From a virus, in the IMG/VR virus record IMGVR_UViG_3300008117_000436, positions 1 to 24,420 of that record: a DNA stretch of 24,420 bases; one strand, written 5' to 3'. Positions 8,965 to 11,570 of the stretch are shown here, in pieces. Position numbers and translations under genes: made by a program. Each line of letters starts with the position of its first letter. Position 1 is the stretch's first letter. Under the pieces are notes generated by a model that ran no database searches, was not told the origin of the DNA, and was given only the letters and a program-made list of their open reading frames with translations.

Positions 8965-9297
8965 ATGCCCGATAGGCTGCCGACGTTTAAACCGCCGTGG
9001 GTTGGGCAGCGTAAGCGGCCACGGGCACCGGACACGAATCGACCGTCGGCATCTGCTCGAGGCTACTGCTCGCCAGGGTGGAAGGCAGCCCGGCGAGAAG
9101 TGCTACTGAGGGATGGCTACCAGTGCCAGGTGTGCGGCCACCTAGTGCATGGCAAGCGTGCGCATGTGGACCACATCGTGCCCAAGAGCAAGGGCGGCAG
9201 CGATGAGGTGACGAACCTTCAAACGTTATGTGCGTCGTGCCACAGCAAGAAGGAAGGCTGGCGGGCCGCAAATGCCAGCAAGCAAAAAGCCCTATAA
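8965..9297 (+). CDS. HNH endonuclease (110 aa)
   Basis: The HNH core is clear: YQCQVCG (Cys54, Cys57), then HVDHIVPKSKGGSDEVTNL (His67, Asp69, His70, Asn84), and LCASCHSKK (Cys89, Cys92, His93). This is a beta-beta-alpha-metal nuclease with structural zinc. In many HK97-like cos-phages an HNH protein is encoded right beside terS and is needed with TerL for cos cleavage and DNA packaging, which is the likely role here. ATG 8965 follows the preceding TGA by one base. The last codons lie within direct repeat R1 of the downstream non-coding segment. Confidence 0.92.
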   Translation: MPDRLPTFKPPWVGQRKRPRAPDTNRPSASARGYCSPGWKAARREVLLRDGYQCQVCGHLVHGKRAHVDHIVPKSKGGSDEVTNLQTLCASCHSKKEGWRAANASKQKAL

Positions 9298-9355
9298 AAC
9301 AAGGGCGAAACGCATGTCGCGAGCAAAAAGCCCTGTAAAACAAGGCAAAAACGCA
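9281..9355 (+). repeat. Two 34-bp direct repeats, 41-bp period
   Basis: R1 (9281-9314) and R2 (9322-9355) both begin AGCAAAAAGCCCT and end AAACGCA; by eye they agree at 30 of 34 positions. The period of 41 bp is about four helical turns and is not a multiple of three, so coding constraint does not explain it. A shorter related core (TRTAAAAC in R1/R2) reappears as GTTAAAAC at 9385-9392. The pair lies at the 3' end of the HNH gene and just before terS, so the copies may be terminase or accessory-protein binding sites. Confidence 0.65.
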
Positions 9356-9559
9356 CTGTTGCAAAATGCAACAATCGGCCAAATGTTAAAACTTTTGGCC
9401 GTTCACGATAAACCGCGTGCGGGGCCGCGAGCGCGAATATTGCAGAAATCTCCGGGGTTTTTGATGGTTTTTGGTTCGATTTTCGCGTTTTTGAACGGCA
9501 CGCAACGTGCTATTGCCCGGGTTTCCTAACAATCGCCCCTCGTTAACGGAGTCGCCGTC
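9298..9559 (+). other. Candidate cos/packaging region
   Basis: This 262-nt gap between the HNH and terS genes holds no convincing CDS and is clearly more AT-rich than its surroundings. In order it contains direct repeat R2, palindrome GTTGCAAAATGCAAC (9358-9372), stem-loop GGCCAAA/TTTGGCC (9377-9400), a GC-rich stretch (about 9415-9434), four T-tracts at about 10-bp spacing (9458-9492) and GCACG-CAA-CGTGC (9498-9510). Repeats plus bent DNA next to HNH and terS fit a cos-type site with terminase-binding elements. The nick position cannot be read from one molecule. Confidence 0.5.
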
Positions 9560-10027
9560 GTGGCAAAAGCTGGACGTAGGCCGAAGCCGACAGCCCTTCA
9601 CATCCTGGAAGGAACGCAACGCGGGCCAGTGAAACGCGAGCCGTCGGCTCCGGTCGGCGTTCCGCCCATGCCTGAGCGGTTGAAGGTGGACGAAGTCGCG
9701 GTCGAGAAGTGGCACGAGCTCGCCGGCATCCTGACGCGGATGGGTGTGCTGACCACGGGTGACGGCGAGGCGTTGGCCACGCTGTGCGAGGTGCATTCGG
9801 CCGAGCAGTCGTGCCTGCTTCAGTTGCGGGCGGGTGGTGCGGTGATGCACACCGACTTGGGTGGCGTCAAGCCGAACCCGGCTGGCCCGATGTACCGCTC
9901 GCTGGTTGCCATGAAGGCTAGTCTGTTGAGTGAGTTCGGGCTGACGCCAAGTTCAAGGACGAAACTTGCCACGCAAGTCGAAGTCAAAAAAGACGAGCTC
10001 GAAGAGTTCTTCTCCGCACACGGTTAG
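9560..10027 (+). CDS. Terminase small subunit, P27 family
   Basis: The protein starts at GTG 9560 (MAKAGRRPKPTALHILEGTQ) and shows the P27/Terminase_4 pattern: basic N-terminus with RPKPT...LEG, P..PERL..DEVAVEKWHEL (residues about 38-55), a helical core with LTTGDGEALATLCE, and a C-terminus with FGLTPSSRTKL. It binds the packaging site and delivers DNA to the large subunit. The 155-aa length is normal for the family. It overlaps terL by 62 bases in another frame, which is frequent for this gene pair. A convincing SD is not visible before the GTG; AACGGAG at 9544-9550 is the best candidate. Confidence 0.88.
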   Translation: MAKAGRRPKPTALHILEGTQRGPVKREPSAPVGVPPMPERLKVDEVAVEKWHELAGILTRMGVLTTGDGEALATLCEVHSAEQSCLLQLRAGGAVMHTDLGGVKPNPAGPMYRSLVAMKASLLSEFGLTPSSRTKLATQVEVKKDELEEFFSAHG

Positions 10028-11570
10028 CCGGCCAGGCATCGACCAGGCGAAGGCCGACCGCGTCTATGGGTTTTTCGAGAAGGTGCTGAAGCACAGCAAG
10101 GGGCAGACGGCCGGCCAGCCGTTTCTGCTCTTGCCGTGGCAGAAGTACGTGCTGGGTGAAATCTTCGGCCGGTGTCGCTCGGATGGGCTGCGGCAGTACC
10201 GCCAGGGTTACATCGAAATCCCCAAGAAGAACGGGAAGTCAACCCTGCTGGCTGGCATCGCTCTCTACATGCTGGTCGCTGACGGCGAAGCCGGGGCCGA
10301 GGTGTACGGAGCGGCCAGCGACCGCGAGCAGGCTGGCATCATCTACCGGGAAGCGGCGTCGATGGTCCGCTCGTCGCCGGCTCTGTCCAAGGTGCTCGAG
10401 GTGCTGGACAGCCGGAAGACCATCGTGCATCGCGGCAGCAACTCGTTCTATCGGGTGCTGAGTGCTGACGCGTTCCGTGCCGAGGGCTTGAATATCTCGT
10501 GCCTGCTCTTCGACGAACTGCACGCCCAGCGTGGCGACCGGCGGCTTTGGGACGCCTTGCGGTATGGCGGTGCGGCCCGGCGTCAGCCGCTGGTGCTGTC
10601 CATCACGACGGCCGGGGAGGCGAACAAAACGCACCTGTGGTACGAGCAGCACGACTACGCGGAGCGGTGCATCGCCGACACGGCCTTCGACCCAAGTTTC
10701 TTCGGGTGCATCTATGCCGCCAGCCGGGAGGATGACTGGAAGAGCCCGAAGGTGTGGCGCAAGGCGAACCCGTCGCTCGGCGAAACCATCAGCGAGGAGT
10801 CGTTCGCCGCCGACTGCCGGGAGGCTGAGAACTCTGCCACGAAGCTCAATTCGTTCCTGCGGTATCGGCTCAATGTCCCCACGACTTCCGATGTGAGGTG
10901 GCTGCGTCCAGACCAGATTGCGGCGTGTAGCGGCCCGCTGTCTGAGTCATTGGAGGGCCGGGAAGTGTGGTGCGGGCTTGACCTGGCGAGCAACTACGAC
11001 ACGACGTGCTTTGCGGCTGTCGCCCCCAATGATGCCGGCGGGTACGACGTGTATGTCATGGCGTGGATACCCGAGCACAATGCCGCAGAGCGTGAGCGAA
11101 ACGACCGCGTGCAGTATTCGCAGTGGCAGCGGGAAGGCTGGGTGACGTACACGGAGGGCAAGAGCACCGACTACAAGAAGGTGCGAGCCGACATTCTGGA
11201 GTTCTGCCAGAAGCATCGCGTGCGGCGGTTGGCCGTGGACAGATGGAACGCCACTCAGCTTGCCACCGAGCTCGCGGATGAGGGCCTGCCGGTGACGCTA
11301 TTCGGCCAGGGCTTTGCGTCCATGACAGCGCCTACCCGCAAGGTTGAGGCGTTGTTTGTGGATGGAAAGGTGCGATTTGGCGGGAATCCGTTGCTAGGCT
11401 GGCAGTTAGGCAACGCCGCCGTACAGACGGACCCGGCTGGCAACGTGAAGGTGTCGAAGGCCAAGAGCACCGAGCGAGTGGACGGCGTGGTGGCCATGGT
11501 GATGGCGGTCGGCGTGCATATGGGCGAGTCGATGAAGCCGGCCGAGATGCCCGAAATCTCTTTCTGGTGA
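9966..11570 (+). CDS. Terminase large subunit (ATPase and nuclease)
   Basis: Packaging motor of the Terminase_1 type, 534 aa. The ATPase domain has the adenine-binding LLLPWQKY (54-61), Walker A PKKNGKST (86-93), Walker B SCLLFDELHA (178-187, Asp183/Glu184) and the coupling motif SITTAGE (212-218). The C-terminal RNase-H-like nuclease has Asp339 in CGLDLAS, Asp425 in AVDRWNATQ and Asp506 in STERVDG. The start is TTG 9966 with AAGGA at 9954-9958; no ATG or GTG lies before the conserved region. The N-terminal Lys/Ser-rich 20 residues overlap the end of terS. The motor docks on the portal encoded next. Confidence 0.95.
   Translation: MPRKSKSKKTSSKSSSPHTVSRPGIDQAKADRVYGFFEKVLKHSKGQTAGQPFLLLPWQKYVLGEIFGRCRSDGLRQYRQGYIEIPKKNGKSTLLAGIALYMLVADGEAGAEVYGAASDREQAGIIYREAASMVRSSPALSKVLEVLDSRKTIVHRGSNSFYRVLSADAFRAEGLNISCLLFDELHAQRGDRRLWDALRYGGAARRQPLVLSITTAGEANKTHLWYEQHDYAERCIADTAFDPSFFGCIYAASREDDWKSPKVWRKANPSLGETISEESFAADCREAENSATKLNSFLRYRLNVPTTSDVRWLRPDQIAACSGPLSESLEGREVWCGLDLASNYDTTCFAAVAPNDAGGYDVYVMAWIPEHNAAERERNDRVQYSQWQREGWVTYTEGKSTDYKKVRADILEFCQKHRVRRLAVDRWNATQLATELADEGLPVTLFGQGFASMTAPTRKVEALFVDGKVRFGGNPLLGWQLGNAAVQTDPAGNVKVSKAKSTERVDGVVAMVMAVGVHMGESMKPAEMPEISFW

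Follow-up and report, generated by a model that had tools for sequence, protein, structure and literature searches.

A very likely HK97-type cos site, its cut mapped to the base, between the HNH and small terminase genes of an uncultivated phage

The DNA analysed here (the window) is a 24,420-base virus record without annotation, and the segment between its HNH endonuclease gene and its small terminase gene (terS) is very likely the cos site of an HK97-type phage, with the cut mapped to the base. A cos site in this gap had been proposed in the earlier note from the layout of the sequence; this is borne out by contig ends that fall on a single base on the terS side and by two opposite ends located 12 nt away. 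The reading is directly supported by the fixed ends, the 12-nt gap between them, conservation, the gene content and the similarity of the TerS fold. The kind of cos itself is already known (HK97-type 3′ cos). Here, public contig ends alone place the cut at single-base precision for a group of uncultivated phages whose hosts are probably Planctomycetota; our literature search combining cos and terminase with Planctomycetes bacteriophage found no paper.

Gene order and probable host

The plus strand carries a gene series of HNH, P27-family small terminase, large terminase, portal, protease, and HK97-type capsid. HNH is on one side of cos and terS-terL on the other (PF01844, PF05119, PF03354/PF20441), an order identical to that of HK97.

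8965..9297, plus strand: HNH endonuclease gene, 110 aa (PF01844, E 1.2e-15; phrog_589), on the right-end side of cos
9560..10027, plus strand: terS, P27-family small terminase (PF05119, E 6.2e-18), predicted fold closest to HK97 TerS
9966..11570, plus strand: terL, large terminase (PF03354 and PF20441)

The HNH stop codon occupies 9295-9297, and the gap, 9298-9559, contains most of the elements listed in the earlier note, which overlooked the 12-nt cosN (9414-9425), the AAAACTTTTGGC box, and the block at 9445-9462. The segment, described there as AT-rich, has a GC content of 49.5% versus 63.1% window-wide. The best genome matches of TerL are Planctomycetota bins (Phycisphaerales UBA4658, 78%); the host of the phage is probably a member of Planctomycetota, the binning of phage contigs being uncertain.

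Contig ends define the cut

Briefly, IMG/VR was searched with the TerS protein, which gave 79 loci, and contig starts were aligned against contigs running through the HNH-terS gap. Many contigs among these loci start about 60-140 bases upstream of terS. We found that the aligned column of window position 9426 is the start of 31 contigs (27 distinct sequences from 26 datasets, all IMG/VR relatives), which align gap-free from the homologue of 9426 onward and mostly have AGC or CGC as their first letters; L006, a close relative of the window, starts exactly at this homologue. The uniform chance of 31 starts at one column is about 2e-50. Two of the 31, at 38,449 and 36,939 bp, are near-complete, and both have the HNH gene at the opposite end, which closes with ...ATAAAC at the homologue of window 9413. 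The 12 nt at 9414-9425 are missing from both ends of these two contigs. In the gap-spanning contigs, 12 nt separate the two ends, mostly CGCGTACGGGGC or close variants, with CGCGTGCGGGGC in the window.

9414..9425, no strand: cosN, cohesive end CGCGTGCGGGGC of 12 nt; the right end is double-stranded as far as 9413 and the left end begins at 9426

With 31 starts in one column and two matching opposite ends, the genome ends are fixed at one site beside terS. Please note that the right end is exact in two contigs only, a third (L201) halting about 8 nt inside the 12-mer, that in twelve more contigs the end near terS falls on other bases, and that the interval looks 11 nt long in some more distant relatives (L123 with L140, L079 with L114). 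The gap-spanning contigs would derive from circular, concatemeric, or integrated DNA; an exact scan of genome contigs for the cos block gave no match.

Alternative readings and the polarity of the overhang

The repeats of the gap and a conserved box near terS could also be read as mainly transcriptional, i.e., the repeats as terminators and GGYAYG-N4-KTGC as a sigma54-type terS promoter, a reading that would be compatible with a cos site and that we consider unlikely.

9278..9314, plus strand: repeat copy 1, facultative, beginning inside the last HNH codons, with the partner copy 41 bp on
9319..9355, plus strand: repeat copy 2, 41 bp from copy 1
9497..9510, plus strand: box GGCACGCAACGTGC (GGYAYG-N4-KTGC), resembling a -24/-12 promoter

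On the minus strand, the repeats fold into terminator-like hairpins, and the box matches the -24/-12 pattern and recurs as a conserved element upstream of terS, at +49, +71 to +73, +82 or +92 from the cut in relatives. However, terminator-like matches are not above those of shuffled sequences (4 versus 2.0 +/- 1.8), on which account minus-strand terminators were discarded, and the genes flanking the gap are both on the plus strand. The sigma54 activator domain PF00158 has no match in 10 related records, which speaks against a sigma54 promoter with a phage-encoded activator, and our literature search on sigma54 phage late promoters found nothing relevant. In L123 and L140, the box abuts the ribosome-binding site, so that a transcript from the box would lack that site. 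The transcriptional reading also leaves the contig ends unexplained.

It is very improbable that the common contig end is an assembly artefact, with gap repeats or strain variation breaking the assemblies, rather than a physical DNA end. Repeats and variable sites do cause metagenome contigs to break, and some contigs here end close by at other bases; against this, the break falls on one base in 27 distinct sequences, in relatives with and without the repeats alike, the opposite ends of the two near-complete contigs are exactly 12 nt from the common start, and, in some cultured phages whose records begin at cos, the conserved terS-side block described below has almost the same offset.

The end-repair step of library preparation fills in 5′ overhangs and trims 3′ overhangs away, and in assemblies fixed ends come to lie at contig limits (PMC5557969). 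The straightforward reading of the 12-nt gap is a 12-nt 3′ overhang, because with a 5′ overhang the 12-mer would be expected at both ends, and it is found at neither; we infer this polarity from the library chemistry, the loss of 12 nt from both ends, as deduced from the contigs, matching the effect of end repair on 3′ overhangs. A lambda-type 5′ overhang, or direct terminal repeats, in place of the 3′ overhang would agree with lambda in the 12-nt length. We regard either as highly unlikely, since filled-in 5′ ends or terminal repeats predict the same sequence at both contig ends, and HK97, with its HNH partner, has 3′ ends; the lambda-type 5′ cos was rejected on the 12-mer being at neither end of the two near-complete contigs. 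Terminal-repeat or headful (pac) packaging is dismissed because the ends are fixed and the two near-complete contigs have no terminal sequence in common.

Conserved core and the probable TerS site

We evaluated the column conservation among relatives, in which three stretches stand out: AAAACTTTTGGC at -38 to -27, ATAAAC-CGCGT-CGGGG around the cut, and GAAAT-CNCCGGGG-TTTTT at +20 to +37 on the terS side, with a C/G-rich middle.

9388..9399, plus strand: conserved box AAAACTTTTGGC, to the left of the cut, with 1.2-2.0 bits in most of its columns
9445..9462, plus strand: candidate TerS recognition block GAAATCTCCGGGGTTTTT, +20 to +37 from the cut, proposed from conservation
9458..9492, plus strand: T-tracts about 10 bp apart (9458-62, 9468-72, 9480-83, 9488-92)

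Judged by its position, the AAAACTTTTGGC box would be a cosQ-like element. The block at 9445-9462 is composed of an AT patch, a G/C patch, and a T-tract and, by analogy with HK97, is probably the TerS site. The phased T-tracts described earlier are there, four of them in 9458-9492, and only the first (9458-9462) is universal in the main clade. Repeated TerS-binding sites like the R-sites of lambda cosB would lie on the terS side; no repeat family was found in 9426-9559, but lambda R-sites are degenerate. Four relatives (L078, L079, L080, L127) have a different TerS (about 44-47% identical), a similar cosN, and another terS-side block, as if TerS and its site had been exchanged together.

Among 38 aligned TerS proteins, R133 of GLTPSSR is kept in all 38, and most have the AT-hook-like start RGRKPKPT. 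The predicted TerS structure (pLDDT 85) is nearest to HK97 TerS, with a Z of 9.5 (rmsd 3.1 over 97 residues) compared with 6.6 for the next unrelated chain, although a Z at this level does not prove a relation between helical folds. Foldseek also ranked HK97 TerS first, weakly (E 0.33), and a profile search of PDB sequences with TerS gave no relative. By analogy, the RGRKPKPT and GLTPSSR segments may touch the AT patch and the G/C patch.

Comparison with HK97, lambda, and cultured phages

In HK97, the overhang is 3′ and 10 nt long, and cutting is stimulated by the HNH protein gp74 (PMC11331095, PMC9410871); one sentence of PMC9410871 says 12 nt, its figure legend 10. The minimal TerS site of HK97 is +15 to +29, where TerS inserts arginine 7 into the minor groove at T16 and recognises the C:G pair at 21 through arginine 128, with a DNA bend of 34 degrees (PMC11331095). 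In the HK97 record, +15 to +29 is CTAACCCGATTTTTT, i.e., an AT patch, a C/G patch, and a T-tract. The HK97 cos (gp1 TerS, gp2 TerL, gp74 HNH) is like the one here in having HNH on one side and terS on the other, a 3′ overhang (probable here, from the contig ends), these three patches just inside the terS-side end, and a TerS fold like that predicted here. It differs in the overhang (12 nt here, 10 nt in HK97) and in the T-tract position (+33 here, +24 in HK97), whereas the P27-family TerS and the extra repeat pair, palindrome, and box around the cut belong to the site studied here. The HK97 right end (L322) has AAAACCTTTGCC at -31 to -20, which is like the AAAACTTTTGGC box in 10 of 12 letters; going by this likeness, the two could possibly be a common cosQ-like element.

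The earlier note had compared the gap with the binding-plus-bend logic of lambda cosB. Binding plus bend would fit in HK97 rather than lambda form, with a conserved terS-side block of AT patch, G/C patch, and T-tract like that of the solved HK97 TerS site. The lambda cos (cosQ-cosN-cosB) has, as here, a cut site with elements on both sides and a 12-nt overhang length. Its 5′ overhang, R-sites, and IHF site and the lack of a known HNH partner are lambda features that set it apart.

As an independent check, we considered cultured phage records that start beside terS, for which the offsets were not fitted. The HNH-terS-terL order in HK97, AH07, and BoyNamedSue is as here. In Pantoea AH07, whose TerS is 36% identical, GAAAT occupies +20 to +24 and is followed by T7 at +31 to +37. 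The corresponding elements in three Gordonia phages (BoyNamedSue, TimTam, and Madeline) are GAAT at +21 to +24 and T6 at +33 to +38. SfIV, SVep1, Sfi21, and BN12 have at least 5 T in a run between +22 and +36. There is no such T run between +22 and +36 in Gudmit, Asriel, NBR1, rho14, PK3.6, and VW-6S, in several of which the record start may not be the cos end, and the G/C-patch-plus-T-tract block is absent from several other cos-type records (Gudmit, NBR1, VW-6S). Since the offsets were unfitted, the matches also support 9426 as +1. The left ends of AH07 and BoyNamedSue, taken from the record starts, are like the one here in the P27-type TerS, the HNH gene at the opposite end, a GAAAT or GAAT whose last letter is +24, and the T-tract at +31 or +33; the remaining sequence around the cut differs.

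We put forward, tentatively and with slightly more doubt than confidence, that the block may be a packaging signal shared across phyla, with an AT patch at +20 to +24, a T-tract at about +31 to +38 and a G/C patch between, read by the RGRKPKPT N-terminus and GLTPSSR of P27-family TerS. If this is true, cos cuts would be placeable by sequence alone, with the other elements added at whole helical turns. The comparison ties P27-family TerS to DNA recognition of the HK97 kind and points to a simple rule, based on sequence, by which cuts could be located in other HNH-type cos phages.

Proposed mechanism

In the mechanism that we propose, the terminase and the neighbouring HNH nuclease would make a staggered cut at 9414-9425, leaving 12-nt 3′ overhangs, CGCGTGCGGGGC and its complement, with the left genome end running from 9426 and the right end double-stranded up to 9413. 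TerS would recognise 9445-9462 (AT patch, G/C patch, and DNA-bending T-tract), and the bend at the T-tract may stall TerL, resulting in cutting at cosN. The AAAACTTTTGGC box, the facultative repeat pair, and the palindrome on the HNH side would probably serve as accessory protein contacts.

Optional elements on the HNH side

The direct repeats with a 41-bp period claimed in the earlier note are real: the copies are 37 nt long and 86% identical, and the best 34-mer self-match in 9271-9559 is 30/34 versus a maximum of 23 in 300 dinucleotide shuffles, none of which was as good. Their suggested role as cosB was not supported: the repeats are located on the HNH side, and about half of the distinct spanning relatives lack them while retaining cosN and the T-tract block. 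A search of related phages for the pair succeeded in some and found none in others: a repeat copy is present in 12 of 27 distinct spanning sequences, with the partner 39-41 bp off in most. Where the pair occurs, the two copies are 41 bp apart (39 in L007), and its offset from the right-end boundary is -116/-75 in most, -126/-85 in the window, and -104/-63 in L017. The repeats were rejected as the cos core, many relatives without them retaining cosN, and as a dispersed element, since scanning every viral contig for the exact consensus returned three relatives only, two with the match at the cos locus and the third with it at a contig end matching that locus.

9357..9373, no strand: palindrome TGTTGCAAAATGCAACA, facultative, TGTTGC-N5-GCAACA

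The palindrome was also rightly noticed, and its TGTTGC...GCAACA arms are conserved in some relatives, where TGTTGC-N5-GCAACA lies at -59, -69 or -79/-80 from 9426 (6 distinct sequences). As for the reported 7-bp stem-loop, a stem is present, but it is larger, with 8 bp formed by CGGCCAAA/TTTGGCCG at 9376-9401. By themselves, short stems do not exceed chance expectation (70 of 300 shuffles contain one of 7 bp), and a conserved hairpin at 9376-9401 was rejected since the left arm is not conserved.

The spacings of the optional elements shift in steps of about one or two helical turns (about 10 bp). A simple test of helical phasing gave p of about 0.005, from few independent events, with a best period anywhere between 10.5 and 11; the steps are no more than suggestive of protein contacts phased to the cut. 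The repeat pair and the palindrome are probably accessory protein sites outside the cos core.

Other features of relatives

In several relatives (L196:3001-3822, L205:3001-3798), the cos-side HNH and a P-loop kinase-like domain (PF13671 AAA_33, slightly over the cut-off) form one fusion protein, in which another residue takes the place of the Asn in the HNH motif; DNA ends could be the substrate of a kinase located next to cohesive ends. In three others (L097, L115, L130), a DNA-methylase-like gene is located directly upstream of terS, and the L097 contig begins with AGCCCGCG, which is cos-end-like, ahead of the methylase-like gene.
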